Origin: Lunularia cruciata
Taxonomy: Eukaryota > Streptophyta > Marchantiopsida > Lunulariales > Lunulariaceae
Assembly: GCA_948567375.1 (NCBI GenBank)
Contig: OX419761.1
Location: 30,480,243-30,544,242 of the forward strand
Length of the DNA stretch: 64,000 bases
Direction of reading: 5' to 3'
Positions 1 to 37,450 of the stretch are shown here, one piece after another. The translations under genes were made by a program, and so were the position numbers. Below the pieces are notes generated by a model. It had not been told where the DNA came from and searched no databases. It worked only from the letters and a program-made list of their open reading frames with translations. Within the stretch, counting starts at the first letter, position 1, and each line of letters begins with the position of its first letter.

Positions 1-544
1 GAACCTCCTCCAAAATTGGAAAAACTTCTCCAAACTTGCAAAAGTCCTCCAAACTAGCAAAAGTCCTCCAAATCTGGCCAAATAGAAAAAATCCTCCAAA
101 TCTAGCCAAAATCTGACATAAATTCTAACCAAAATCTGACATAAACCCTAAATTTGGCTATCCGCCAAATCCCCCGCTAACTTTCCACTTGAGCCAAATT
201 GACAACACGGGTTTTTCCAAATCACAAATTCATGAGAATAGCTTCTCAACTCCACCTTCAATTTGACTTTCTAAGCCCAACTCGGAGCAAATTGGTCCTA
301 CCTTCACCTCTTGAGCTCAAAATCACAACCATTGCTCAAAATTTGCTCCTCCTTTGCTCAAAATTTGGCCAGTGCTTCCGTACACCGTCTGCCTTACTGC
401 CAAATCTACATCAATCAAATGAGCTTTTGCACACTAGGGAAACACTAAACTTGAATCGAGCTACCAACGATCCACCGAGCTTGGAGATACCACCAACACT
501 CAAAGTTCCTGCACCCAATTTCCCTTAAACTTCACTTCTCTGAT
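1..544. other. Uncharacterised non-coding stretch with CTCC/AAA-rich short repeats
   Basis: No gene is recognisable. The first 130 bases hold imperfect repeats of a motif like aaagtcctccaaa. The open frame at 199-528 has low-complexity composition and no recognisable domain. The stretch lies left of a dispersed 455-bp repeat unit and is probably old repeat DNA. Confidence 0.4.
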
Positions 545-1000
545 GTAATCAAATTGCTTACCACTCTCAACTCAACTCAACTCAGATCAGTACTTGATCT
601 CTCACTCTATAAACTGCTAACAACTAAGCATTGATTACAGTCAAGCCACACCCACTCAAGCATAGAGAATCCAGGTGATGCTTGCTGACCTCTGTCCACC
701 ATAGCTAGGAACTCAAAGGCTCAACATTAGAGAAGTGAGCTCTTTGGAGCTCACTTTGAAACTATACCCCCTGGACTTGAGCTAGCTCTGAAACCCTAAC
801 GGTCCTGCTGACAGCACACTCGACGGTGCGAATGGTGCAAAGTGACGGTGGGCCCCACCATGAAGTCAATACTTTGAACACAAAATCTGACCGTCGGAAA
901 GTAGTCTCTAAGATACTACTGAAATAACTCTAACTACTATCATTGGAACTCCAGTGTCTAAGCAATCTAGATGCGACACTACAAATGGCGTGACAACATC
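545..1000. repeat. Dispersed 455-bp unit (R455), copy 1, without flanking 102-bp repeats
   Basis: This block aligns along its length with 2560-3006 and 25208-25662. It starts near taatcaaattgcttacc and ends near aatggcgtgac. In the other two copies the block is flanked by a 102-bp LTR-like repeat. Here both flanks are different, so this copy was either inserted alone or lost its flanks. It contains no coding capacity. Whether it is part of an LTR or a separate short element is open. Confidence 0.6.
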
Positions 1001-2479: not shown

Positions 2480-3108
2480 AAAATGTGGGTACCACAAACA
2501 TCATACACTATAGAAGCACAACTCACACATAAGTGATACATAGACTCTAAAGTGTTACAATAATCAGATCGTTTACATTTCTAATCGATTGAACTTAGAT
2601 CAATACTTGATCTGATCCTCAAAAACTTGCCAACAATAGGGCACTGTCAAGCCACACCCACTCTAGCTAAGAGAATCCAGGTGATGCTTGCTGGCCTTTG
2701 TCTGCCATAGTCAGGAACTCAAAGGCTTAACATCAAGGAAGTGAGCTCTTTGGAGCTACACTTTGAAAGTATACCCTTGGACTCAAGTTAGGTTTGAAAC
2801 CCTAACGGTTCCGCTGACGGCACACTCAACGGTGCAAATGGTGCAAAGTGACGGTGGGCCTCGCCATGAAGTCAGTACCTTAAACACAAAATCTGACCAT
2901 CAAAAAGTAGTCTATGAGTAATTGCTAAAATGCTTCTAACTACTATCATTGGAACTCTAGTGTTTGAGCAATATAGATGCAACACTACAAATGGCATGAC
3001 AACTATCATGCGTATATACATCACTACACAACATACATCACTGTCAAAATCATACACTATAGAAGCACAACTCACACATAAGTCATACATAAAACCTAAA
3101 GTGCCACA
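2480..3108 (-). repeat. LTR-like block of the PHD/DNMT Ty3 family: 102-bp repeat, 447-bp unit, 102-bp repeat
   Basis: The arrangement is a partial 102-bp repeat ending at 2559, an R455 unit at 2560-3006, and a complete 102-bp repeat at 3007-3108 ending gtgccaca. The same arrangement occurs at 25106-25764. A purine-rich tract on the minus strand (gggaggtgat) directly follows 3108, as expected for the polypurine tract next to the 3' LTR of a minus-strand element. It is therefore read as the 3' LTR of the truncated element at 3109-3990. Confidence 0.6.
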
Positions 3109-3990
3109 ATCACCTCCCTAGTTGGCGGTTAGGTCTCTTTAACTCCAAATAGCCATCTACTCCAAGTATATGGTATACCCTATGATGGTTAAAGATCAGG
3201 AGGCCGGGTGCTATGGAGCCCCATCATTAGTAGCATGTCTGCAATCTACTCCATATAAATGATGAACTAGCTATAGGCCAAGTACATTTAGGACATAACC
3301 ATTGTCCTTGAGGAACCATCGTGAGGGGAGGAGTCATACATGCCATATGTCATCTTCTCAAATAGCTATCACACACTAACACAATAGCAGCACCACTAGA
3401 GCCATATAACATACACCTCAAGCCTGCACGTACAAGTGCCAAGCTTGGATCCATAGTATCATCAATGGTATGGTCAATTGTACACATGATCCTTCTAGAC
3501 AACACCGTCACGTCCTTCTAACACAAGGACTCTAGATGGGAAAATCTCATGCACTCTCAAGATAGTGCGGCCTATTGAAACATCAAACATCATTGGTGCT
3601 ATCTATTGTAGATATACATAGTCTCTTGGATGAAATTGATGGATCAAGGATCTATAACCTCCTCCTTAAATGGTACCATAGCATAAAGTATCTTTATGTT
3701 GAGCAATCACCAAGTTCTCAAAAGCCATTGGCATCACTCTCCAAAAGATTTCTGCCCGTTGAGAACATGTGCTCATCCATACATTTGGGTCATCCAAGTC
3801 CAAAACTACAATAGCATCTCAACAAATGGCTGTAGGTAAATCTGGATCTCATCCATAGAGTAGGAAGTAAGGAGAAAAGGATGCTAAGGAGGCCTACCGG
3901 CTGAACCAATAGCCCATGGCCAACCAAGGTAATTGGAGATCCCAATCTCCCAAGTGGCCTCTCTACAAACCATACTTTTGTAATCCTCTC
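3109..3990 (-). pseudogene. 3' end of a PHD-type Ty3/gypsy pol (integrase C-terminus plus PHD finger), truncated
   Basis: This is a third, 5'-truncated copy of the element family at 25765-30246. On the minus strand it reads integrase C-terminal sequence and then a degenerate PHD-type finger with a CDSYL-like segment, HMACM and a final WLCPKC, ending just before the polypurine tract and LTR. Compared with the copy at 25933-26232 it carries stops and changed cysteines (CMLYG instead of CMLCG). Upstream it is cut within integrase near 3990, where a tandem duplication begins. It is not functional. Confidence 0.65.
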
Positions 3991-4265
3991 TTCACTATTT
4001 GAACCACTCTCTCTACTAAGCCATCTATGGTACCCACATTTTTGTTTTTTTTCTTATTTTTGAAGAAGAAGTGTACAGAAGAAGTCATTTTGTGCCTATA
4101 TGACATTGGCTTCTCTTCAAACCATACTTTTGCAATCCTCTCTTCACTATTTGAACCACTCTCTCTATTAAGCCATCTATGGTACCCACATTTTTGTTTT
4201 TTTTCTTATTTTTGAAGAAGAAGTGTTCAAAAGAAGTTGGATTGCACCTATATGACATCAGAAGG
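3961..4265. repeat. Tandem duplication, two copies of about 152 bp
   Basis: The segment from ctctacaaaccatacttttg through gaagaagaagtgt is repeated with a period of 152 bp (landmark catactttt at 3971 and 4123). Each copy holds the same T-rich run followed by gaagaagaagtg. The left part matches the integrase region of the PHD-type Ty3 element, so the duplication arose at the junction of that element with unrelated DNA. Confidence 0.75.
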
Positions 4266-22396: not shown

Positions 22397-23134
22397 TGTA
22401 ATACTCCGAGGACAAGAGAAGAGAGAAAATACAAATTTCACACTCAAACATTTGATGCCCCAAAGGAACATCACCTCTTTATTATACAGACAAAGAGTAT
22501 CTCCTCCAAGGAAGCTCCCCCATAGGATTAGGCACACAGATAGGTGACATGTCAGCAAGCTCCACCCTTGGATTACTTACTTGGATGGGTGACATGTTGG
22601 TCTAGGTCCTATCTGGTTGGTCAAACAAGCTTTGATCAGAGGGAATCTTTTAGGGAATCTTCCTATAGGAATCTTAGAATCACGTGGGTAAGGTACCGAT
22701 GTAAAGCTCTCAATGAGACAAAGCAAGGGGGAGAAAAAGCCAGTCTTTCAGCCATTGGGAGTGGGGTGGTGACACATTTTTGAGTCCTAATTCATCCGTT
22801 TAGGTCTCCAAAATTGCCTTCAAAGATTTTAGGCATATTTCGGTTCCTACTCTATTAGTAGGAGTCCCCTTTTGGTGAAACCTCTTTCTGATCTGTTTAG
22901 TCCATCATGTGTAACATCCTTCCAGATGTTACCAAACCAATTCTCACCTTTAAATCATATGTCTAGCTATTGGTTCTAAGGTTTTCAAGTCTATTTTGGT
23001 TTTTGCTCTATTATTAGAAGTATTCTTTTGGTGATACTTTATCTGATCTATTTGACCATCATGTGTAACATCATTCTAGATGTTACCAAACCAAATTTCA
23101 CATCTAGATCATATGGCTAGCTCTTGGTATTACA
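22397..23134 (-). mobile_element. LTR of chromovirus family D, minus orientation (3' LTR)
   Basis: The block begins tgtaatactccgagg and ends ttggtattaca on the plus strand, giving TG...CA ends. A purine-rich tract on the minus strand (aaaaagagggaggtc) adjoins the right edge at 23135-23150, which is where the polypurine tract of a minus-strand element should be. It matches the LTRs at 48618-49216, 51763-52349 and 36700-37450. Like the solo LTR at 36700 it contains an internal duplication of about 150 bp around the segment gatctgttt...atgttaccaaacca. Confidence 0.8.
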
Positions 23135-25105
23135 GACCTCCCTCTTTTTAACACTCAACGTCCTCGTTGTGCAATTGTTGCTCAAATGCTTGCACCAACA
23201 CCGGTGCATGTGTCAAGTTTGCGGCAGGCTCCTAAGTTTCTTCATAGAGGGGGTAAACTTTCCACTATATTAGATAGTCCATCCGCAGATGGTGAGTGCC
23301 ACACATGTGTTTTTGGAGAATACGTTCCACTTCATATTCCTCAATGCCATCAATGAGTGTCAAACAAGGTCGAATGTCTTGTGTGAAATGACCCTAGCCT
23401 GATCGGGGTGCATATCTACATAGCAGGGAAACATGGAACACTGGATGGATCTTCATGTGTGGTGGTAGCTCAAGGTGATAGGCCATAGTGCCGACTCAAC
23501 AAAGAATCAAGAAAGGCACAATAAAACGAGGTCTAAGCTTACGAGGTCTAAGCTTACGAGGTCTGAGCTTACGAGGTCCAACTAATGTGAGGTTGGTTGT
23601 CAATAGCCATACTTGATCTCCAAAATTGAAATCCATGTGCCTATGGTGTGCATCAGCATACTAATTTTGTTAGTTTTGCACAATTTGTAATCTATGCTTG
23701 GCGCTCTCCACACCTTGTTGGATTCTAGAAACAAATGTGTTGACTGCACCGACCTTACCACTGGACGGATCTTCATCAAGCTAGAAGGTGTGAAGGGATG
23801 CTCACCATACATGAGGAATAACAGAGTGACTTGGGTAGATGCATTTATTGAATTTTTGTAAGCAAATTCCACCAACGGGAGTAAGGTGTCCCACCTCTCT
23901 TGCTCTTCTAAGGTGAAACCGCATAACATGTCTTCAATCATGCAATTAGCCCGCTATGTTTGTCAATTTATTTGTGGGTGGTAAGTTGTGAACATGGCCA
24001 ACTTGGTGAAAGAGTGTTCGCCAAAACAAATTGGTGAATTGAGTGCCTCTATCGGTGATGAGTACTCTAGACAAGCCATGGTGAGAGAAGATTACATTTA
24101 AGTATAATTAAGCTAGTTGTGGAGCGGTCACATCCTTGGTGATAGGGCATACATGAATCATTTTGCTAAGCCGGTCTACAAAGACCAAAATAGAGTCAAA
24201 CCCTGAGGTGGTCTTGGGTAATTCACATTCTAGATCCATAGTCACTTGTTCCTAATGTTGGTTAGGAGTGGGGAGAGGTTGAAGGAGCTCTACATGAGCT
24301 TGATCAGAAGCTTTGTTTGTTGAAAAAGTAGGCAAATGTGCACATAGTCTAGCACATTGTTGCTCATCTTGGGCCAATAGTAATGGTGCTAGACTGCATC
24401 CAAGGTCTTGTCCACTCCAACAAGACCTGCAATGGCCAAATCATGACATTCCGCTAGAATGGTGGTGTGTAATTTTGAGACATTTGGGATCTATAATCTG
24501 CCATCATGAAAGTTGAGTCCTTGGGTGCTAGTAACGCCTTTGGATGATTGCACTTCTACAATATGTGGATCAATTTTTGTAGCAGCCAAAATCTCTAGCC
24601 AGAATTCAAGGTTAATCTTAACCTCTACCACCAAGTTATTGGCCATTGGCATGTAGGTGAATGCATCTACAAGTTGCTTCTTACCTTCCATGTAGGTGAT
24701 TGTCATGTTGAAGCGTTGTCGTCACTCTGCCTACTGAATCTGGCAACAAGATAGATCCTTTTGCGTCTCAAGGTAGACTAGAGGTTTGTGGTTTGTCTTT
24801 ACTACAAATGCACTCTTGCCCATATAGTGCTTCCAATGCTTGGTTGCCAAAACAATGGCCAACTCTTTTTGTTCCGTGGTGTGGTAGTTGCACTCTACCG
24901 GTAACAACTTTCAAGAGAAATATGCAATTGGATGTAATCCGTCATGCCACTCTTGTTATAGGACTGCTCCTATTGCTACGCTTGATGCATCTATAGCCAA
25001 CTTGATTGGACGTTTTGGGTTTTGGGTTTTGGGTTGGACGTTTTGGGTCATACCATTTCAAGATTAGTGCATATAGCAAGGTTGCTTTCAATTCTTGAAA
25101 GGTAT
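23135..25105 (-). pseudogene. Chromovirus pol remnant: RNase H, integrase, chromodomain end (minus)
   Basis: Read on the minus strand from 25105 down, the remnant starts inside RNase H (FQELKATLLYA; later segments equivalent to HYMGKSAF and VYLETQKD). It continues with integrase, including the zinc-binding and core parts near 24200-24450 and the well-preserved block ERWDTLLPLVEFAYKNSIN followed by GEHPFTPSSL at 23600-23941. It ends near 23150 with sequence equivalent to the chromodomain end (EQQLHNEDV). RT, protease and gag are missing: the remnant stops exactly where the 102-bp LTR-like repeat begins at 25106. A GGGTTTT-type microsatellite interrupts RNase H near 25010-25045. Many stops make it non-functional. 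Confidence 0.75.
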
Positions 25106-25764
25106 TGTGCGTATATACATTGCTACACAACATACATCATTGTCAACATCATACAATATAGAAGCACAACTCACACATAAGTCATACATAGACTCTAAAG
25201 TGCCACAATAATCAGATTGCTTACCACTCTCAACTCAACTCAACTCATATCAATACTTGATCTGTCACTCTATAAATTGCCAACAACTGGGCACTGATTA
25301 CAGTCAAGCCACACCCACTCAAGCATAGAGAATCTAGGTGACACTTGCCGGCCTCTGTCCACCATAGCCAGGAACTCAAAGGCTCAACATCAGAGAAGTG
25401 AGCTCTCTGGAGCTCACTTCAAAACTATACCCCCTGGACTTGAGCTAGCTCTGAAACCCTAAAGGTCCCATTGACGGCACACTCGATGGTGTGAATGGTG
25501 CAAAGTGATGGTGAGCCCCACTGTGAAGTCAGTACCCCAAACATAAGATCTGCCCGTCAGAAAGTAGTCTTTGAGAAACTGCTGAAATAACTCTAACTAC
25601 TATCATTGGAACTCTAATTTCCGAGCATCTAGATGCGGCACTACAAATGGCGTGACAGCTATCGTGCGTATATACATTGCTACACAACATACATCACTGT
25701 CAACATCATACACTATAGAAGCACAACTCACACATAAGTCATACATAGACTCTAAAGTGCCACA
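25106..25764 (-). repeat. 3' LTR block of the DNMT/PHD Ty3 element: 102-bp repeat, R455 unit, 102-bp repeat
   Basis: On the plus strand a 102-bp repeat runs 25106-25207 (tgtgcgtatatac ... gtgccaca), then the 455-bp unit 25208-25662, then a second 102-bp repeat 25663-25764. The right edge is followed by ccccctag, the complement of a polypurine tract, so this is the 3' LTR side of the minus-strand element. Either the LTR is 659 bp with terminal sub-repeats, or the LTR is only 102 bp and a second LTR lies beside it. The plus-strand relative at 36034-36135 has just the 102-bp version. Confidence 0.65.
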
Positions 25765-25932
25765 ATCGCCCCCTAGCTGGCAGTTAGGTCCCTCTAACTC
25801 CAGATACCCATCTACTCTAAGTATATGGTATACCCTCTAATGGGCAAAGATCAAGAGGCCGGGTGCTATGGAGCCCCATCGTTAGTCGCCTGTCTGCAAT
25901 TTATACCATATAAAGAATGAACTAGCTATAGG

Positions 25933-27070
25933 TCAAGTACATCTAGGACATAACCATTGTCCTTGAGGAACCACCATGAGGGAAGGAGTCATACATGCCA
26001 TATGCCATCCTCTTGAATAGCTATTATACACTAACATAATAGCAACTCCACCAGAAGAGCCACATAACATACACCTCAAGCCTGCACGTACAAGTGCCAA
26101 GCTTGGGTCCATAGCACCATCAATGTTGGGGAGGTGGCATGGTGCACAATTGCGCACATGATCCTTCCAAACAACAACATCATGTCCTTCTAACATAAGG
26201 ACTCCAGATGGCAAAACCTCGTGCACTCTCAAGATAGTGCGGCCTGTAGAAACGTCAAGTGTCGTTGGTGCTATCTGCTATAGATATACATAGTCGCATG
26301 GATGAAATTGACGGATTGAGGGTCTATAACCTCCTCCTCAAATGGTAGCATAGAGTAAAGTATCTCTATGCTGAGCAATTGCCAAGTTCTCAAAGGCCAT
26401 CGGCATCACTCTCCAAAAGATCTCTGCCCGCTGAGAACATGTGCTTATCCATACATTGGGGTCATCCAAATCCAAAACTACAGTAGCATCTTGATGAATG
26501 GCTGTAGGTAAATCTGGATCTCGTCCATAGAGTAGAAAGTATGGAGAGAAGGATGCTAAGGAGGCTTGCCGGCTAAACCGATAGCCCATGGCCAACCAAG
26601 GTAATTGGAGATCCCAATCTCCCAAGTGGCCTCTCTACAAACCATACTTTTGCAATCCTCTCTTCATCGTCTAAACCACTCTCTCTACTAAGCCATCTGC
26701 CTCAGGGTGATCTCGAGATGTAGTACAATGATCAATCAAGGCCTTGTCACACAAGACTTGAAACTCCCCCAAGAACTTTGTACCCTGATCAGTCAAAACC
26801 TCAACTGGTGCACCAAAATGACTAAGAACTTGATCCAGGAATGAGTAAGCTGTCCCTTCACTAGACTTGTCAGGAAGTGCCACCAACTCAATCCACTTGG
26901 AGAAGTGCTCCCTCATCACCAAAACATATTGATGATGTCTCACAGTCAATGGTAAAGGTCCGGTGAAGTCTAAACTCCAATGGTAACCCAATCCCATGAT
27001 AGGTAATGGGTGTAATTGTGGCGTAGGAGCATTGAATGATGCTCTAACTTGGTCACAAACCACACATCTG
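25933..27070 (-). pseudogene. Integrase with C-terminal PHD-type finger (copy B)
   Basis: The catalytic core reads WSLDFTGPLP (first Asp), VLTDQGTKFLG (second Asp) and HPEADGLVERVV (Glu), the DD35E triad of retroviral-type integrase that inserts element cDNA. After a stop near 26671 the C-terminal part continues (WDLQLPWLAMGYRFSRQ, YGRDPDLPT). From about 26232 the end is VVVWKDHVRNCAPCHLPN and a finger CMLC-x(11-13)-YNSY...WHMAC...WLCPRC. In the sister copy the second cysteine pair retains its first Cys (VCDSY). The layout is that of a PHD finger, which binds histone tails, and it sits where chromoviruses carry a chromodomain. Two stops (near 26669 and 26283) inactivate it. Confidence 0.75.
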
Positions 27071-27282
27071 GCAACAAACTACTGTACCTCAGTCTGCATA
27101 CTGTGCTACCAATAATGACTCTAGAGTAAGCTATACATACACTTTACTCCAAAATGTCCTAGCTCCTCATGAGCATGACGGACCAACTGTGGTCTCTGAG
27201 ATGGAAGTGGTACTACTCGCACTCTACCATCCTCCCATACACGCAAAAGGTGTCTACCCTCCAATCTGAACCATCTGGCTCG

Positions 27283-27606
27283 CTAAAGAACACGGTCTCT
27301 CTCCTTGGCCCCAATTGTGCCACCCACAACACCAGTGTGAAGATAGTCCATCACTAAGATATCATCATGAATGTCTTGCTGAACTATACCAATATCTTCA
27401 CTCTCTGGATCTGTGACCTCAATAACTCCTCCTGTATGCGCTGAGAGAGATACCACCAAAGCCTCTGCAAATATACACAGAAAGGCCGATGCATGCCAAC
27501 CTCGCACCATCTCCTCATCTGTCTCACCATGCCAACGTGCTTCGGTCTGATCCTGCTGGCTGGGACATGGGTTTCTACTCAACCCATTTGCATCACGGTC
27601 CACCAC
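27283..27606 (-). pseudogene. RNase H-integrase connector with part of the integrase N-terminal region (copy B)
   Basis: The frame begins VDRDANGLSRNPCPSQQDQ, the usual end of the RNase H/connection region of Ty3 elements (a variant of the NVADALSR motif). It then runs through a variable acidic segment (VIEVTDPESEDIG) to GAKERDRVL. The zinc-binding HHCC part lies just downstream on the minus strand (about 27070-27280), with HAHEELGHFGVKH-like sequence visible more clearly in the sister copy near 34630-34680. It is part of the same broken pol. Confidence 0.6.
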
Positions 27607-27672
27607 TCCAGGTCTATGAACAATCGTGAAATCATACTCATGTAAAATCAGAGCCCATCGTGCAAGCTTCCA

Positions 27673-28700
27673 TTAAAGCTTGTCAGACTCCATCAACCAC
27701 TTCAGTGGCTGATGATCAGTGATGAGAGTGAAGGGGTTACCAAATAGGTAACATCGGAAATGTGCTACTGCCCAAACTGCTGCCAAGCAATCTCCCTCAT
27801 ATGAACTATACTTTGCCTCCGCTGAATTGTTGGAGCGACTAGCATAAGCCACCACAAACTCCTTCTCCTCATCATCATGTTGGGTGAGCACCGCTCCAAG
27901 CCCCAACATAATCCAATCAATGTGAACTTGAAATGGTCGTCCCTTGATCCTAAACTCCTCAAAATAGGAGCAAATGTCAACCTCTCCTTGAGCTCTACAA
28001 AAGCTCTCTCATGCTCATCTCCCCAACACCACTCTTGTGTAAGCTTGGTCAACTTTGTCAAGGCCTTGGTAATGGCACTAAATCCTCTAACATAGCGGCA
28101 ATAAAAGTTTGCCAACCCAAGGAATGCTCGCACTCTGCTCACATCCATAGGCCGAGGAATACGTGCAATAGCCTCCACCTTGGTCTGCTGAACACCAAGT
28201 CCTCCGAGATAGATAGTGTGACCCAAATACTCAACCTGCTTGTGGAAGAACCTACACTTCCTAAGATGTAATTTGAGTCCATGAGATCTCAACCTCTCAA
28301 ACATCTCCAACAACTGTCTCTCATGCTCCTCCACAGTAGTGCTATAAACCAAAATGTCATCAATATAACACCGAGCAAAATCCAATCGAGCTAGGATCCT
28401 ATCCATGACCCTCTGGAACTCAGCATGAGTGTTCTTTAACCCAAATGGTAAGAACCTCCATTGATTTAACACATCCTTGCTGTGAGGATCAATAGCCCAA
28501 AATGTTGTCTTGGACTTATCCTCCTCCTTGATCGGCAACTGATGATATCCCGCTCAAAGATCCAAAGTACTGAAGATCTTTGCATGCCCAATCGCATCAA
28601 AAATCTCCTCTGGTGTAGGCATGGTATACCGATCAGCCTTGGTCTATCGGTTGATAGGATGGTAATCTCCACACATCCACCTATCTGTATAGTTGCCATG
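27673..28700 (-). pseudogene. Reverse transcriptase and RNase H (copy B)
   Basis: RT reads DLxAGYHQLPIKEEDKSKTTFWAI, the PFGLKNTHAEFQRVMD block, the catalytic box CYIDDILVYS, then GLKLHLRKC, YLGHTIYLGG and RAFLGLANFYCRYVRGFS, the classic Ty3 order. RNase H follows with FVVAYASRSNNSAEAKYSSYEGDCLAAVWAVAHFR and TLITDHQPLKWLM. A frameshift near 27910-27960 separates RT from RNase H, and a stop precedes AGYHQL. The enzyme copies element RNA into cDNA; this copy is dead but the catalytic DD is kept. Confidence 0.85.
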
Positions 28701-28989
28701 CATATCCTTCTTGGCTGGCATCATTGTCATTGATGCATACTCTCCATGTGAAATCTCCACCAAACTAGCCTCAAAAAGGTCACTACTCCCGCTCTGAATC
28801 AATGTCCTCTCCATATCACTATATCGATAAGGACGTCAAAAAACTGGTGTGTTGCTAGTCAACTCAATCTGTATACCAGGTCCCTTTAGAGCACCCAAAT
28901 CCTTCATATTGAAGGCAAAACAACTTGTGTGACTCCTCAAGAACCTCCAAACCCTCTGTCTTTCCTCTCTAGTAAGCTTGGGTCCAAGA

Positions 28990-29370
28990 TCTCACTCCCA
29001 AGTATCCTCTTTTACTGTAGTAGGAGTGGAAGACATACTGATTGACTGCTACACTGGGCCCTTGGGAGCAATAGTGTCATACTCCCGACCACTAGAGTCC
29101 CAACCTCTGTGTGAAAAACTCCCTCCACTCTGGCTGCAAGCTCCACACGTCCTCTAGCTGCATCCCATGTGGACCAAGGGTGTAATCCAAGTAGCCCACG
29201 CTCACCTGGATGGACTCCAAGTAGACCACTCTCCCTAGTAGCTATTGGATGTGTCCCAAGAATACCATGTCCACTTGGTCCATCGGCCCCAACATGTGCC
29301 TGAATTGTCTTGATAGGCACAGGGCTCACAAGTGTCCAAGTAGTGATGCCTATCAAGCGCATCCTGTGCT
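28990..29370 (-). pseudogene. Conserved unidentified linker between DNMT and RT (copy B)
   Basis: This pol segment follows DNMT motif X and precedes RT. It contains GILGTHPIATRESGLLGVHPGERGLLGLHPW and then DAARGRVELAARVEGVFHTEVG. The sister copy at 32480-32770 preserves the same words (ESGLLGVHLGE, ARGRVELAARVEGVFH). I do not recognise a family. Repeated G-L-L-G-x-H-P units suggest a small repeat domain. Conservation between two decayed copies indicates it was coding in the active ancestor. Confidence 0.5.
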
Positions 29371-30246
29371 ACTCTGCCAAGCCAAGGCTCACAATCCAGG
29401 TCAAACAATTCAGGTCCATACCCTGACCTAACACCTGATGCCTAGATGCCTCTGACACTGCTAGAACAGCAGTAATACTAGTGCAAAAACCCATCACCCG
29501 CTCTCTCTCATCAGCGTTGGGCTCCACCAACTGCTGTAACTATGAGTCCCAAACAAGTCCAAGTCCTCCCTCTCAAAAAGCATGAGAGCCTGGGAAACTC
29601 ATGAGTGTGGGAAATGCAGCTTTAGGCTGTCCAATTAGGTTCACCACTACCATAGGTGACCTATCAGCCACTACCATTGTCTGAGATTGACGTCCAACAT
29701 CCAAGATATCATCAACAAGGATGTGGTAAAGTCGCTAAATCCCATCATAAGCGCACTGTAGAACCTCTCTGGGTAAGAGGTTTGTCCACCAAAGACAAAG
29801 ATGATGAGCCCGTGATCCCACTCTGGCTGCATCTAACAATACAGCAGGTCCTATCCAAGAATGGACCTAATGTGTACTTGCCACCACTCTAGTGCGAGAA
29901 TCACCCATCAAAGGAACATTCTCCAAAAGGTAAGCTGGAGAAATAGACTGATGAACCTGGAGATGTCGTAGTATCCGTAACATCTCCCAAAACACACCAA
30001 AATGAGGATCTTGAAGACCCAATCCTCTACCAGCACGTGTATGTCCTTGACATGGCCATCCAAAAATCACCAAGTGAATAGGCCCATGTCTCTCTAGGTC
30101 ATGCCCTCTAGTAAGGAAATGTCTCATATTAGGGCCTTTTGGTAACCTCTGACTACTAACATTGGTAATAACTCCGGATACCGATAGGCCAAGTGTGCCA
30201 CATGATGTAGAGAGACTCGCCTTGCAGTCTCATCCCTCTCTACATA
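29330..30246 (-). pseudogene. DNMT3-like C5 cytosine DNA methyltransferase domain (copy B)
   Basis: The domain transfers a methyl group to C5 of cytosine in DNA. From 30246 down it shows YVERDETARRV (motif II region), VIFGWPCQGHTRAGRGLGL (motif IV; catalytic Cys codon at 30050-30052), PAYLLENVPLMG (motif VI, ENV), RVGSRAH.LCLWWTNLLP (motif VIII), a target-recognition-like stretch, and RVMGF...SEASRHQVLGQGMDLN (motifs IX-X). The ENV-x2-MG and SRAH...NLLP arrangement is closest to DNMT3. Motif I (SAM binding) is missing here, lost at the junction near 30246, but is present in the sister copy at 31492. Stops occur near 30126, 29860, 29745 and 29538. It lies between protease and RT of a Ty3 pol, not in a host gene. 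Confidence 0.8.
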
Positions 30247-30310
30247 CATACATACACTGGTCATACTTCCCCAATCTTTCATGCTATCTGAGGCATTGCA
30301 GACAACATCC

Positions 30311-31470
30311 ATGGCTCCTAGACGTCCCAATGCACATGTGGTAGATGGTGATGGAGTGCATGATAGACTACCTGCTAGTCAGCCACCTACTACTACATAG
30401 ACTGAGTCTAGCATGATGTTGGGGGCGGCTCAACTGATTATGCGGTGCCCTTTGTTTTTAGCCAATGACATATTTACATTAGGAGTTGATCCAGCCCTAG
30501 TGTTTGGTTGGCTACCACACTTTGTGAGAGTAAGGATGATGCATTTCCTACTATTAGAGCAGAGGTGGTCGATAGGAGAGTTGATTGGGTTGAGGAGCAT
30601 GAGATCCGTCAAGCAACCAATGGTTTATGGCAGGCATTAGCAACTAAATTGGAAGAGTTGCCAATTAGACCGACCTTTGAGAGAGCACAGTTCACACTTG
30701 GTGTTGTCCTCTTGGATAACCAGAGGGAGATTTTCCATTTGGTGGGACCTTCAAGGAAGGTCTACACACCACATAGAGTCTTGTTAGACTCTAGTGTGTA
30801 GCCCCTTATGTTGGGAAAGGCTGCAGTAGTCAATCTAGAGTTACAAAAGATTGAAGTGGAGAGGTGTCCATTTCAGATCCAAACATCTCTAGGTGGTAGT
30901 TTGACACAATACATCACACGTGGGGAGCTTGTTGTCCAGGTTCAGCCTTGTCATCCAATTGATAGCTTAGTGGTGAGAGCTCAAGCTATTGCGACAATAG
31001 CTGAGTCATATGATGTGCTAGTTGGAAGAGTAGTATTATACCCCATGGGTTTCAACATTGACTATTGGGAGGAGATAGCCTCTTATAGACGAGGTTGGCC
31101 GTTTGGTAAGGGGCAGGTATGTCACCTCCCTGTATGCTTCAATCGTGGTAGTCTTGGCTCACTACAGTCCGCAACCATGGCAACATTAGTTTCAACTTTT
31201 AGTGGTGTAGTTACTTGGCTTGGTGACTTGTTGGAGGGGAACGCCCATGCAGAGGATACTCCAGTACCAAAGGAGATCACTTGGATTTGGAGAACAAGTA
31301 GGATTGTTCTATTGTGGAGTTTAGAGGAGGCATTGCAGCAACATGCAGATCAGTTGGTGCAACAGGCTTGGAGTGGAGCCTTCATACCATCAAGAGATGA
31401 GTGTGAGGATGAGCCTCTTGAGTTGATTACTTTGACACCTCTGGATACCACACTCATTGCTTGGCAATAT
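30311..31470 (+). pseudogene. pol N-terminus with retropepsin-like protease (copy C)
   Basis: A possible start ATG is at 30311 (MAPRRPNAHVV). A stop at about 30402 and a frameshift near 30500 break the front part. From about 30508 one frame runs to 31566 except for a TAG at 30799-30801. The protease centre reads RVLLDSSV followed by PLMLGKAAV, so the catalytic D-S/T-G is changed to D-S-S. Further on, SYDVLVGRVVLYPMGF matches the second conserved retropepsin block. The segment WEEIASYRRGW and a 120-residue linker lead to DNMT motif I. Protease would process the polyprotein; here the active site is altered and a stop lies next to it. Confidence 0.65.
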
Positions 31471-32470
31471 CCAATAGATGGGATATGTCTATTGGAGTTG
31501 TTTGGTGGGATTAGCACCATATGGTATTACAAGTGGGTATATGAGTATAGAGGTACTTGTATGTAGAGAGAGATGAGACTGCTTGGCAAGTCTCTTTACA
31601 TCATATGGCACACTTGGCCTATCGGTATCCTAAGTTATTACCAATGTCAACAGTCAGAGGTTATCAAAAGGCCCTACCAACATACTTTTCCTTACTGGGG
31701 TGCATGATCTAGAAAGACATAGGCCTATTCACCTGGTGACTTCAGGATAGCCATGTCATAGACATACACATGCTGGTCAAGGTTTGGGTCTTTAGGATCC
31801 TCATTCAGGTGTGTTATTAGAGATGTTATGGATACTATAACATCTCTAAGTCCATCAGTCTGTTTCTCTATTTCTCCAGCTTATCTTTTGGAGAATGTTC
31901 TTTTGATGGGTGATTCTCGTACCTGGGTAGTAGCGAGTACACATCAGGTCCATTCTTGGATGGGACTTGCTATATTGTTGGATGTAGCCAAAGTGGGATC
32001 ACGGGCTCATTATCTTTGTCTTTGGTGGATGAACCTCTTACCCAAAGAGGTTTTATAGTGTGCATATGATGGGATTCAATGACTAGACCATATCCTTGTT
32101 GATGACATCTTGGATGTGGGGTGTTAGTCTTAGACGATGGTAGTGGCTGATAGGTCACCTATGGCAATGGTGAACCTAGTTGGATAGCCTAGAGCCGCTT
32201 TTCCCACACTTATGAGTTTCCCAAGCTCTCATGCTTTTCAAGACGGAGGACCTGGACTTGTTTGGGACTCACAATTATAGTAGTTGGTGGAGCACAATGC
32301 CGATGAGAGAGAGCGGGCAATGGGTTTTCACACTAGTATTACCGTTGTTCTAGCAGTATTAGAGGCATTCAAGCATCAAGTGTTAGGTCATGCTATGGAC
32401 CTGAATTGTTTGACCTGAATTGTTTGACTTGGATTGTGAGCATTGGCTTGGCAAAGTAGCAAAGGATGCA
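31471..32470 (+). pseudogene. DNMT3-like cytosine methyltransferase domain (copy C), motif I preserved
   Basis: Motif I reads GICLLELFGGIST (codons from about 31480; LELFGG at 31492), the SAM-binding loop missing from copy B. The part after it is scrambled by frameshifts and a TAG at 31564. Motif IV is degraded to a form with PCHRH in place of PCQGH and a stop before it, so the catalytic block is broken. Motif VI (PAYLLENVLLMG) and motif VIII (KVGSRAHYLCLWWMNLLP) are clear at 31876-32040. Motifs IX-X are visible near 32310-32430 with several stops. Together with copy B all signature motifs of the domain are represented. Confidence 0.75.
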
Positions 32471-32479
32471 TTTGATAGG

Positions 32480-32770
32480 CATCACCACTTGGACACTTGT
32501 AAGCCCTATGCCTATCGAGACGATTTAGGCACATGTTGAAGGTAATGGACCGGGTGGACAAGTTATTCTTGGGATGCAACCAATGGCTACTATGGAGAGT
32601 GGTCTACTTGGAGTCCATCTAGGTGAGCATAGTCTATTTAGATTATACCCTTGGGATCCAGCTAGAGGACGTGTGGAGCTTGCAGCCAGAGTGGAGGGAG
32701 TTTTTCACATAGAGGTTAGGACCTCTAGTGGTCAGAAGCATGACACTACTACTCCCAAGAGCCCAGTGTA
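32480..32770 (+). pseudogene. Conserved unidentified DNMT-RT linker (copy C)
   Basis: It is equivalent to 28990-29370 of copy B, with ESGLLGVHLGEHSL and ARGRVELAARVEGVFHIEV. No family is recognised. It ends at a TAG (32769-32771) shortly before RT begins. Confidence 0.5.
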
Positions 32771-33059
32771 GCAACTAGTCAGCATGTCTTCCACTCTTAC
32801 TATAGTTACAGATGATACTTAAGAAACAAATCTTGGACCCAAGCTTATTGGAGAGAAAAAACTCAGGGTTTGGAGGTTCTTGAGGAGCTACACTAGTTAT
32901 TTTGCCTTCAATATGAAGGATTTGGGTGCTCTAAAAGGACTTGGTATACAGATTGAGCTGACTAGTGATACACCAATTTTCTGAACGTCCTTATTGCTAT
33001 AGTGACATGGAGAGGACATTGATTTAGAGCTAAAGTAGTGACCCATTTGAGGCTGCTTT

Positions 33060-34260
33060 GGTGGAGATTTCACATGGAGAGTATGCATCAGCAACAATGA
33101 TGCTAGCCAAGAAGGATATGCATGACAACTACACAAATAGGCAGATGTGATACCGTCCTATCAACCGACAGACCATGGCTGATCGGTATACCATGCCTAC
33201 ATTGGAGGAGATATTTGATGCAATTGGGCATGCAAAGGTCTTCAATACTTTGGATCTTCAAGCGGGATATCATCAGTTGCCAATCAAAGAGGAAGACAAG
33301 TCCAAGACAACATTTTGGGCTATTGATCTTCATGGCAAGGATGTGTTGTATCAGTGGAGGTTCTTATCATTTGGGTTAAAGAATGCTCCTATCGAGTTCC
33401 AAAGGGTCATGGATAGGATCCTAACTAGATTGGATTTTGCTTGGTGCTATACTGATGACGTTTTAATCTATAGCACTACTATGGAGGAGCATGAGAGACA
33501 ATTGTTGGAGGTGTTTGAGAGGTTGAGATCTTATGGACTCAAATTACATCTTGGGAATGTGTAGGTTTTTCCATGAGCAAGTTGAGTATTTGGTCATACT
33601 ATCTACCTTGGAGGACTTGGTGTTCAACAGACCAAGGTGGAGGCTATTGCACATATTCCTTGACCTATGAATGTGAGCAAAGTGCAAGTATTCTTTGGGT
33701 TGGCAAACTTCTATCGCCGCTATGTTAGAGGATTTAGTGTCATTACCAAGGCCTTGACAAAGCTGACCAAGCTTACATAGGAGTGGTGTTGGGGAGATGA
33801 GCAGGAGAGAGCTTTTGTAGAGCTCAAGGAGAGGTTGACATGTGCTCCTATTTTGAGGAGACTGATTAGAGGACAACCATTTTAGGTTCATATTGATTGG
33901 AGTATGTTAAGGCTTGGAGCGGTGCTCACCCAACATGATGATGAGGGGAAGGAGTTTGTGGTAGCCTATGCTAGTTGCTCCATTAATTCAGCAAAAGTGA
34001 AGTATAGTTCATATGAGGGAGAGTGCTTGATAGCAATTTAGGCAGGACCACATTTTTTATGTTATCTATTTGGTAACCACTTCACTCTCATCATTGATCA
34101 TCAGCCTTTGAAGTGGTTGATGGAATCTGACAAGCTTTCAAGGAAGCTTGTACGATGAGCTTTGATTTTACAAGAGTATGATTTCATGGTTGTTCATGGA
34201 CTTGGAGTGATGAATTGTGATGCAGATGAATTGAGTAGAAAACCATGTCCCAACTAGCAT
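33060..34260 (+). pseudogene. Reverse transcriptase and RNase H (copy C)
   Basis: RT begins with ADRYTMPTLEEIFDAIGHAK and FNTLDLQAGYHQLPIKEEDK, followed by FGLKNAPIEFQRVMD, the catalytic box CYTDDVLIYS, and a stop after GLKLHLGNV (33562-33564). Downstream FGHTIYLGGLGVQQTK and LANFYRRYVRGF continue with a frameshift and further stops. RNase H reads EFVVAYAS and IIDHQPLKWLMESDKL up to about 34140. It matches copy B domain for domain. Confidence 0.8.
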
Positions 34261-34479
34261 GATCAGACCAGAGCACATTGGCATGGTGAGACATATGAGG
34301 ACATGGTGCCAAGTTGGCATACATCGGCCTTTTTGTGTATAGTTTTTGAGGCTTTGGTGGTATCTCTCTCAACGCATACAAGAGGAGTTATTGAGGTCAT
34401 AGATCCAAAGAGTGAAGATACTGGTACAGTTTAGTGAGACATTCATGGTGACATCTTAGTGATGGACTATCTTTGCAGT

Positions 34480-35865
34480 GGTCTTGTGGTGGAATAGTTG
34501 GGGCCAAGGAGAGAGATTGTGTCCTTCAGCAAGCCAAACAATTCAGATTGGAAGGCATACACCTTTTGCATGTATGGGAGGATGGTAGAGTGCAAGTAGT
34601 ACCACTTCCATCTCAGAGACCACAGTTGGTCCGTCATGCTCATGAGGAGCTAGGACATTTTGGAGTAAAGCATACATATAGCTTACTCTAGAGTCGTTAT
34701 TGGTGGCACGGTATGCAGACCATGGTATATTTGTTTGTTGCCAAATGTGTGGTTTGTGACCAAGTTAGAGCATCATTCAATGCTCCTATGCCACAATTAC
34801 ACCCATTACCTATCATGAGATTGGGTTACTATTGGAGTTTGGACTTTGCTGGATGTTTACCATTGATTGTGAGATATCATTGGTATGTTTTAATGATGGT
34901 GGAGCACTTCTCCAAGTGGATTGAGTTGGTGGCACTTCTTGACAAGTCTAGTGAAGGGACAACTTACTCATTCTTGGATCAAGTTCTTAGTCATTTTGGT
35001 GCACCAATTGAGGTTTAGACTGATCAAGGTACAAAGTTCTTGGGGGAGTTTCAGGTCTTGTGTGACAAGGCTTTGATTGATCATTGTACTACATCCCAAG
35101 ATCACCCTGAGGCAGATGGCTTAGCTAAGAGTGGTTCAGACAATGAAGAGAGGATTGCAAAAGTATGGTTTGCATAAAGGCCACTTGGGAGATTGGGATC
35201 TCCAATTACCTTGGTTGGCCATGGGCTATCGGTTCAGCCGGCAAGCCTCCTTCTCTCCTTACTTTCTACTCTATGGATGAGATCCAGATTTACCTACAGC
35301 CATTTGTCGAGATGTTATTGTAGTTTTGGACTTGGATGATCTAGATGTATGGATGAGCACATGTTCTCAACGAGCAAAGATCTTTTGGAGAGTGATGTCG
35401 ATGGCCTTTGAGAACTTGGCAATTGCTCAGCATAGAGATACCTTACACGATGCTACCATTCAAGGAGGAGGTTATAAACCTTTGATCCTTCAATTTCATC
35501 CAGGAGACTATGTATATCTATAGCAAACAGCACCAACAACACTTGATGTTTTGACAGGCCGCACTATCTTGAGAGTGCGTGAGGTTTTTCCATGTGGATT
35601 CCTTGTGTTGGAAGGACGTGATGTTGTTGTTTGGAAGGATCATGTGTGCAATTGTGCGCCATGCCACCTCTCAAACATTGAGTACATGGATCCAAGCTTG
35701 GCAATTGTACATGCAGGCTTGAGGTGTATTTTATGTGGCTTTTTTGGTGGAGCTGCTACTATGTTAGTGTGTGATAGCTATTTGAGAGAATGGCATATGG
35801 CATGTATGACTTCTCCCCTCACGGTGGTTCCTAAAAGACAATGGTTATATCCTAGATGTACTTGA
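34480..35865 (+). pseudogene. Integrase with C-terminal PHD-type finger (copy C)
   Basis: The zinc-binding part shows HAHEELGHFGVKH near 34640 and CVVCDQVRASF. The core has WSLDFAGCLP (Asp), then a TAG at 35017-35019, followed by TDQGTKFLGEF (Asp) and HPEADG near 35108; the Glu region is disturbed by a frameshift. The C-terminus at 35551-35865 reads VVVWKDHVCNCAPCHLSN and the finger CILC-x11-VCDSYLREWHMACM...WLYPRCT, with one terminal Cys replaced by Tyr. This copy keeps the CD pair lost in B, which supports the PHD reading. Confidence 0.75.
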
Positions 35866-36033
35866 CCTATAGCTAGTTCATTCTTTATATGGTATAGATT
35901 GCAAATAGGTGACTAATGATGGGGCTCCATAGCACCCGGCCTCCTGATCTTTGCCCATCATATGGTATACCATATACTTGGAGTAGATGGCTATTTGGAG
36001 TTAAAGAGACCTAACCACCACCTGGGAGGCAAT

Positions 36034-36135
36034 TGTTGCACTTTAAAGTTTATGTATGACTTATGTGTGAGTTTTGCTTCTATAGCATATGATGTTGGTA
36101 GTGATGTATGTTGTGTAGCAATGTATATATGCACA
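36034..36135 (+). mobile_element. 102-bp LTR (or LTR end) of copy C
   Basis: It starts TGTTGCACTTT right after the polypurine tract and ends ATATGCACA, so it has TG...CA ends. It aligns along its whole length with the inverted 102-bp repeats at 25106-25207 and 25663-25764. No R455 sequence follows; unrelated DNA begins at 36136. Confidence 0.7.
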
Positions 36136-36699
36136 ACAACTCTTCTAACACATTCTTAGGCTAGTGCTACTTCCTTTTGCTATATTTAGCTTAAACTACT
36201 AACTCATTAGCTTCTATTAACTCATCTACTAACTCTATATTATTACATAAGCTCCATAAAGATGGATGTCCATGAGATATTGTTGAAATCATTTTCAACA
36301 TCCACATGAAGGAAAATCCACTCTAGATGGATAGCTAGGAGTGCCACAATACTTCAAGATATAGCTTCACAACCTTTGGGTGTAACTATTCAAACTAATA
36401 TGGACCAAATGTTGCTAGAAGTGAGAACAATGATGAGATATGATGGTATGGCTAACCAGATGCAAAAAAATATCCCCAATAGCAATTGATCTAATGCCTT
36501 TAGTATCCTTCTCCATCTTGAGAAGTCAACTAGCACTTAACACCCACCTAACTAATGTAGAACTATCTCTCCTTTCTATTGCTCAAGCCACTTGAAATAG
36601 CTTAATAAAACCACTAGAAGGATCATCATCTTGAAAGCAATCTCTAAGATGCTCATATACTATACCCAACAAACCTCTTGAGGAGAGGTGTGTGGCAAT
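36136..36699. other. Intergenic stretch, nothing recognised
   Basis: No gene, RNA or known repeat is visible. A short motif ttgttgaaatcattttcaacatccaca near 36280 may be gene-unrelated low-level repeat. Confidence 0.4.
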
Positions 36700-37450
36700 T
36701 GTAATACTAATAGCTAAACACATGATCTAGAGATGAAATTTGGTTTGGTAACCTCCGAGAAGATGTTATACTTGATGGAAAAAGTAGATTACATAGAGGT
36801 ATCACCAAAAGAGTACTTCCACTAATAGGCCAGAAACCAAAACATGCTTGAAGACTTTAGAATCAATAGCTAGACATATGATCTAAAGGTAGAATTTGGG
36901 TTGGTGACATCTGGAAGGATGGTACACATAATGGAAGAAGTAGATAAGGTATAGGTATCACCAAAACAGAACTTCTACTAATAGGGTAGAAACCAAAATA
37001 GACCTAAAAACTTCAGAGGCAATTTTGGAGACCTAAACGGATGAATTAGGCCTAAAAAATGTGTAGTACTCCCCCCCTCCCCTAAATGGAGGAAAGGCTG
37101 GCCTTCCCTCCACCTTGGTTTTTCTTGCCAAGAGCTTTCCAATAGTACCTCACACACGTGATTGTAAGATACCTACAATTAGATTCCCTAAAAGATTCCC
37201 TCTAGTCAAAGCTTGTTTGACCAACCAAATGGGACCAAGATAGACATGTCACCCATTCAAGCAAGTAATCAAAGGGTAGAGCTTGCTGAAGAGTCACCTA
37301 TCCATGTACCTATCCTATGGTGGAGCATCCTTGGAGGAGATCCACTTTGGCTATATAATAAAGAGAAGGTGCTTCCTTGGGGTACCAAAGTTTGAGTGTG
37401 AAATTTTTGTTTTCTCTTTTATGTTTCTTTGCTATCCTCGGAACATTACA
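36700..37450 (+). mobile_element. Solo LTR of chromovirus family D
   Basis: The block begins TGTAATACTAATAGCTA and ends TCGGAACATTACA, matching the family-D LTRs at 22397-23134 and 48618-49216. No polypurine tract, primer-binding site or internal sequence flanks it. The bases before (gcaat) and after (acaat) agree at four of five positions, as expected for an aged 5-bp target-site duplication. It carries the same internal duplication of about 150 bp as the LTR at 22397. Confidence 0.75.

Follow-up and report, generated by a model that had tools for sequence, protein, structure and literature searches.

A DNA methyltransferase domain ahead of a recurrent stop codon in a Lunularia retrotransposon of a wider green-plant Ty3/Gypsy family

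Why should a sequence resembling a cytosine-C5 DNA methyltransferase (DNMT) lie inside a retrotransposon of a liverwort, and what could it do there? The question is raised by a 64,000-nucleotide stretch of the Lunularia cruciata genome (contig OX419761.1; hereafter the window), in which two dead Ty3/Gypsy copies, each with a DNMT between protease and reverse transcriptase (RT), are inverted head to head and abut near 30248 at a short TACA repeat. The minus-strand copy (25096..30248; 93.9% identical to genomic copy L013 over 4624 bases) is decayed and 5'-truncated inside the DNMT but keeps its B1-A2-B2 3' end; the plus-strand copy (30256..36141; 87.4% identical to L013 over 5945 columns) is likewise decayed and is truncated inside ORF1 and past repeat B1. 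Given their unequal identity to L013, they look like two separate insertions of different age rather than one inverted duplication. A second inverted repeat pair, of another repeat family (22451-23134 and 36700-37389, 79-83%), flanks them both. Family alignment further places two minus-strand fragments of other copies in the window: a 3' end at 2497..4178 with a PHD finger at 3284-3418, and a 5' end (A1 plus leader) at 1..995, across which the window edge cuts.

With the DNMT domain of genomic copy L010 as tblastn query, the minus copy matches at 29357..30249 (residues 58-355 with motifs IV-X, 88-91% identity) and the plus copy, in pieces, at 31396..32468 (residues 2-354, with motif I); both domains are broken, by indels and, in nucleotide alignment, by 6 and 14 stops, respectively. 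The initial annotation, made from the letters alone, had proposed a methyltransferase inside a Ty3/Gypsy element, and the follow-up bears this out: the DNMT lies upstream of RT in both copies, and Pfam reports DNA_methylase in an open copy of the family (1.9e-7). Motifs IV, VI, VIII, IX and X do fall on the minus strand within the match at 30249-29357, and motif I (residue 34), which the minus copy lacks because it is cut off at 30248, is indeed brought by its sister (30256-36141) as LELFGGIST. The remaining domains were placed by tblastn, the Pfam assignments coming from the open frame of copy L012. On the minus strand these are RT (28212..28865, 3 stops; RVT_1), RNase H (27607..28040), integrase (26680..27204, 3 stops; rve and H2C2) and, C-terminal to it, a PHD finger (25939..26076). 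On the plus strand an aspartic protease region (30428..30897, found with the family's own protease segment) precedes the DNMT, which is followed by RT (32986..33603, 6 stops), RNase H (33775..34206, 4 stops), integrase (34608..35129, 2 stops) and PHD finger (35722..35859).

Within the window alone, one could take the DNMT for a host gene fragment caught between two element pieces, or for chance motifs, as neither copy there is intact and the two meet head to head near 30248. The genome speaks against this. When all 565,766,749 bases (566 Mb) were scanned with the Pfam DNA_methylase model, at least 123 places scored, many of them within long open frames. The 60 of the 123 that were read comprise 53 element copies (L005, L007, L008, L009-L018, L100-L139) and seven others, namely five genes that on inspection belong to the host (two DNMT3s, two DRMs and a CMT), a further element copy (L141) and L142, of uncertain kind. 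Ten 10-kb loci, chosen around DNMT matches for their long open frames, all have Gag/protease-region sequence upstream and RT downstream of the DNMT; another 40 copies were taken from the list roughly by score. Every copy was thus found through its DNMT match, and the set is silent on the share of copies that have none; likewise, the DNMT is open across the whole domain in 8 of 55 regions (the 53 loci and both window copies), which is not a genome rate. A 421-base probe across the DNMT-stop-RT junction returned at least 40 copies, each printed as 100% identical (the best 40 of 2161 first-look candidates): 15, the query copy among them, score highest across the full 421 bases, two are exact over 419-420 bases, and 23 score one step lower. 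With the same layout at ten other loci, 40 near-identical junction copies and relatives of this DNMT in other species, a trapped fragment, which the initial annotation had itself named as the outcome that would overturn it, is ruled out for all practical purposes, and the motifs are more than chance. The family has been active in recent times. The genome paper puts the size of the Lunularia genome down to Ty3/Gypsy bursts, and the word 'methyl' is absent from its main text (PMC9985172).

What kind of element is this? Its layout is A1, ORF1 (Gag, protease, DNMT), UAG, ORF2 (RT, RNase H, integrase, PHD finger), B1-A2-B2. Pfam lists DNA_methylase in ORF1 of L010, with a gag match under the cut-off, and RVT_1, RT_RNaseH, H2C2 and rve in this order in ORF2 of L012, so that the Gypsy-type Pol order RT-RNase H-integrase is present. 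Copies with an open pol, for which the initial annotation had suggested a search, exist: ORF2 is open in L012 and L013. Two plain long terminal repeats were not found; instead, complete copies show split repeats, with A1 (about 449 bases, starting TGTCACG) ahead of the coding region and B1 (107 bases, ending CGACA), usually two further bases, A2 and B2 behind it. By repeat comparison, the minus copy of the window retains B1 (25662..25766), A2 (25209..25660) and B2, which is the 3' end of the element (25096..25209), and the plus copy ends in B1 (36032..36138) with no A2-B2 after it. Split direct repeats of the form A1..B1-A2-B2 are the plan of DIRS/PAT-like retrotransposons, whereas TG..CA ends with target duplications are what a DDE integrase typically leaves. 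The liverwort element shares the former with DIRS/PAT-like elements and differs from them in the latter: it has a DDE integrase, TG..CA ends and a perfect 4-bp target duplication in seven of eight copies inspected (L010, L011, L013, L014, L015, L016, L018; none at L012), and Pfam lists the rve integrase core and no tyrosine recombinase domain in L010 ORF1 or L012 ORF2. Taken together, A1/A2 and B1/B2 differ by 0.5-2.5% within those seven copies and by 9.6% in L012. The average number of differing sites is 8.3 for repeats paired within a copy and 11.3-12.7 for other pairings, and several variants are common to both repeats of one copy; however, the own partner is the nearest repeat for only 5 of 14 repeats (one tied). 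There is therefore weak support for the view that every round copies A1 from A2. The B1-A2 junction may act as the template for the ends.

The DNMT and Pol are encoded in one frame, with a single stop codon between them in all 54 aligned copies (53 TAG, one TAA, no sense codon). In the window, comparison with the family identifies it as the TAG at 29049..29051 of the minus copy, followed by CAGTCA, and as that at 32769..32771 of the plus copy, followed by CAACTA. The hexamer CARYYA follows the stop in 52 of the 54 (CAGCCA in 46, CAGCTA in three, CAGTCA in two, CAACTA in one), the remaining two having CAGCAA and CAGCTT, and ORF2 is open past the stop in the same frame, as in L012 and L013, which gives the sequence layout of type I (UAG-CARYYA) readthrough. 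Placed 3' of a stop codon, naturally mostly UAG, CARYYA drives translational readthrough in plant viruses such as tobacco mosaic virus (PMC4132726, PMC3542737). By base counting, a random hexamer matches CARYYA once in 512, and the shared descent of the copies makes this one trial, not 54. Since the sites flanking the stop and hexamer vary just as little (about 2%), these two carry no separate sign of selection within the genome; more telling is that copies both identical and recent have the stop. RNA structure was rejected as a readthrough signal, as none stands out 3' of the stop (z +0.95). Among 41 related proteins that combine Gag or protease with the DNMT, our own copy included, 31 are without RT, RNase H and integrase, 24 of them ending 67-163 residues past the DNMT and seven ending 0-7 residues past it or cut inside it. 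The other ten are four metagenome proteins fused in one frame, and five Marchantia and one Sphagnum gene models that run on into RT/RNase H; these six count against the readthrough stop, and they may be spliced models or copies free of the stop. As the DNMT lies on the Gag side of the stop, we infer that it should be produced at Gag rather than Pol dosage.

Is the domain that of a working methyltransferase? In a PDB search it matched DNMT3A (9.3e-11), DNMT3B (1.8e-7), HaeIII (0.0013), DRM2 (0.035), HhaI (0.05) and DNMT2 (0.08). Motifs I, IV, VI, VIII, IX and X follow one another at 34, 121, 165, 203, 304 and 328, not rearranged as in DRM. In a family alignment of 46 rows, one of which was left out for low coverage, the catalytic Cys is present in 44 of 45 (one gap) and the Glu-Asn pair in all 45. 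In 12 of the 45, P0046 and P0059 among them, GWECQ takes the place of GWPCQ in motif IV, with the Cys kept and Pro replaced by Glu. A DNMT fold is predicted from sequence similarity and from the confidence of a model of the domain (mean pLDDT 92.6, pTM 0.91). Between liverworts, the DNMT is 70-72% identical to that of the Marchantia proteins P0001 and P0002, as compared with 59-62% for Gag and 47-55% for protease; three less complete Marchantia proteins give 62-69% for the DNMT and, in two of them, 66-78% for RT. Among open copies within Lunularia, transition-weighted dN/dS is 0.62 for the DNMT (n=8), 0.50 for RT (n=4) and 1.40 for the spacer behind the DNMT (n=46); the corresponding unweighted pN/pS values are 0.44, 0.32 and 0.95, with 0.49 for Gag-protease and 0.31 for PHD. 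Within-species ratios are diluted by fresh decay, and the informative part is the contrast with the spacer, relative to which the DNMT is under constraint. The integrase value (0.91), from three copies only, counts against the explanation favoured below.

The PHD finger that closes the integrase C-terminus (Pfam 7.4e-10, L012) has its best PDB entries in CHD4, PHF12, KMT2D, KMT2C, KDM5-type proteins, KAT6A and PHF21A. Several of these fingers read unmodified H3K4, and by analogy one might guess that the finger steers integration to chromatin without H3K4 methylation. In placing a chromatin-reader-type domain at the end of its integrase the element resembles the chromoviruses, which have a chromodomain instead. 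PHD fingers are also possible in Ginger DNA transposons (PMC2836005). The finger, the recurrent stop, the split repeats and the single clade of element DNMTs described below go beyond what the initial annotation had noticed.

How old is the association of DNMT and element? Three protein searches, two of which scored the best ~8000 candidates by shared words, listed relatives from Marchantia polymorpha, Sphagnum fallax, Haematococcus lacustris, Monoraphidium neglectum and, in part, Closterium, besides many unnamed ones; the closest named relatives among the matches listed are those of Marchantia, and none of these matches is named Klebsormidium. Two side matches deserve mention: P0139 (Closterium sp. 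NIES-53) has both a copia-type RT (RVT_2) and a partial element-DNMT match (41% over 37% of the query), which may reflect either a merged gene model or a DNMT carried by a different class of element, and P0120, a Gypsy-DNMT polyprotein filed under a Minisyncoccia bacterium metagenome assembly, is probably eukaryotic contamination. The relatives follow two plans, with the DNMT between protease and RT in type I and between RNase H and integrase in type II. In a 61-row DNMT tree, the 21 type II rows form one clade (100/99), joined with seven type I rows (99/97); a tree of RNase H plus integrase (24 rows, single outgroup), in which few other nodes are supported, likewise gathers its 18 type II rows together (94/97), and its one main split thus agrees with the DNMT tree. 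A single capture and a single relocation would account for this, in a direction that depends on the root. The type II proteins P0021, P0023 and P0028 have a C-terminal region past the PHD finger with DPWAG-like and (T/A)(S/P)P-like motifs; by eye it looks like a second, Rossmann-type methyltransferase, and for P0021 Pfam listed no second methyltransferase domain.

The host has two DNMT3 loci: L145 (G000:C7:31989837), which looks canonical (PDB DNMT3A 9.3e-16, with DUF3444 behind it, 4.6e-8), and L146 (G000:C1:51668693), by eye a second, similar one; DRM and CMT genes are also present, by eye. DUF3444 is described for streptophyte DNMT3s (PMC6453930, section 6), and in the accessible text of a paper on the Marchantia methylome, the host methyltransferases listed number five and DNMT3 is not named (PMC5784723). 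Plant DNMT3s of the PpDNMT3a/b type (PMC6453930) share with the element DNMT the unrearranged motif order I-X and the PDB similarity to DNMT3A/3B, but the element enzyme forms a separate clade, has PCQ in motif IV, and is not accompanied by DUF3444 in the Pfam lists of L010 ORF1 and L012 ORF2. These host loci, and DNMT3A as top PDB match, speak for an independent and recent capture of the liverwort's own DNMT3. However, in a 28-row tree, 19 element DNMTs (our own copy, Marchantia, Haematococcus and metagenomes; hand-picked from the 53 element rows of the 61-row tree) form one clade (100/100) that leaves both host DNMT3s outside. A fresh capture in the liverwort lineage is therefore unlikely, and one from the host's own DNMT3 so improbable that we discard it; the clade was tested without a Klebsormidium sequence. 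As outgroup, the 61-row tree had seven viral-contig methylases, five of which were used in the 28-row tree; they come from a scan that gave 73 loci, which were taken as phage-type without individual reading, except L042, on a contig of the length given for P0056. In the best 28-row tree the element clade joins these phage enzymes (86/82), and the DNMT3 rows are not one group, human DNMT3A joining DRM on long branches. A grouping of element DNMTs with DNMT3 is not rejected (AU p 0.297). The label 'DNMT3-like' given by the initial annotation thus holds as a statement of similarity, and of its 'related or independent capture' the kinship in kind to the elements of de Mendoza et al. (2018) is supported and the independence is not.

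Those elements provide the closest precedents: in dinoflagellates and Klebsormidium, C5-DNMTs are known from retrotransposons of the LINE, DIRS and Gypsy kinds (PMC5890265). KnitGypsy-Dnmt3 of Klebsormidium nitens likewise encodes a Dnmt3-type domain within a Gypsy element and, according to the Fig. 4 legend, has DIRS-like repeats with Gypsy domains, as in the liverwort element. It differs in being algal and published as an independent acquisition; the accessible text of its paper does not use 'PHD' and speaks of a 'stop codon' only for Symbiodinium, and the comparison is one of descriptions (PMC5890265). SymbioDIRS-Dnmt3 and SymbioLINE-Dnmt of Symbiodinium are also retrotransposon C5-DNMTs under purifying selection, but in DIRS (tyrosine recombinase) and LINE elements of dinoflagellate hosts.

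What, then, might the enzyme do? On this anatomy we place a scenario in which readthrough, packaging, catalytic activity, substrate and benefit are what we infer. Most ribosomes would halt at the UAG and release Gag-Pro-DNMT, and a few would read through, adding Pol, such that the methyltransferase would be abundant in the particle, at the dosage of Gag. Inside the particle it would methylate freshly made cDNA, with CG as the likeliest target, before the integrase inserts it with a 4-bp duplication at a site that the PHD finger may help to choose. The new copy would arrive pre-marked, and be tolerated and kept quiet via the maintenance enzymes of the host. Precedent is divided: two SymbioDIRS-Dnmt3 enzymes methylated CG in yeast, whereas the Klebsormidium enzyme showed no methylation in this test, a result called inconclusive there (PMC5890265) that nevertheless counts against cDNA methylation. 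The window copies bear traces of methylation. At sites where five copies agree, C->T (or G->A) changes affect 37.6% of CG in the plus and 22.5% in the minus copy, 27.9% and 16.1% of CHG, and 6.9% and 2.3% of CHH, which suggests CG and CHG methylation after insertion, as by host MET and CMT enzymes. That CHG has suffered almost as much as CG points to CMT-type methylation by the host and counts against the scenario. CG depletion was rejected as evidence of self-methylation, as it was not seen: CG observed/expected is 0.44-0.48 in four open elements, compared with 0.37 in the window and 0.10 in one other Gypsy pol (2 kb). Lasting self-methylation is therefore unsupported, though the youth of the copies could mask depletion.

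Three other roles have to be weighed against this. The domain could act on element RNA, or be a nucleic-acid-binding part of Gag; its position on the Gag side of the stop, where such binding is the main task, and the undepleted CG content would suit this, but even distant relatives have retained the catalytic Cys and Glu-Asn, which is more than binding alone would need, and the nearest solved structures are the DNA methyltransferases DNMT3A/3B, with the tRNA enzyme DNMT2 far weaker (0.08). We regard this as a minority possibility, if one to be taken seriously. A lower rank falls to action on the host genome, by which the enzyme would compete with or misdirect host methylation, or damp the element so that both persist. 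Host-directed action has been proposed for other retrotransposon DNMTs (PMC5890265), and the element is abundant and recently active; the decay of the window copies at CG and CHG is, however, what host silencing would produce. Improbable is a mere passenger, kept by hitch-hiking: most examined copies are broken, with 8 of 55 DNMT regions open, but constraint relative to the spacer, conservation above Gag and protease between liverworts and family-wide catalytic residues are hard to reconcile with a domain lacking a role. Self-methylation of cDNA is thus the likeliest role, and we hold, with slightly better than even confidence, that the explanation is right as a whole, namely that this is an autonomous-type Ty3/Gypsy family of green plants in which a C5-DNA methyltransferase is a standing part of the proteome and acts by the mechanism proposed.

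A wider reading would join all of this into one history, which we offer tentatively, expecting it to fail in some part sooner than to hold throughout. One ancient Gypsy lineage would extend across chlorophytes and streptophytes, having taken up a DNMT once, perhaps from a donor other than a host DNMT3, and with one branch later shifting it to another place in Pol. In bryophytes, its placement ahead of a readthrough stop would make a DNA methylase a bulk component of the virus-like particle, with self-methylation of the cDNA and choice of site by the PHD finger, and the family would have contributed to the doubled Lunularia genome.

The published DNMT-carrying retroelements that we found are algal and dinoflagellate only, and here they occur in Marchantia, a Sphagnum and Lunularia, in a plant group from which they had been said to be absent; that no report from bryophytes was found in the open-access literature is not proof that none exists. 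It is paradoxical for a transposon to bear an enzyme of the type by which transposons are silenced. In Marchantia, a genetic model whose methylomes have been published, the question of why a retrotransposon would methylate DNA becomes testable, and the recurrent stop gives a sharp prediction for the dosage of Gag-Pro-DNMT versus Pol.
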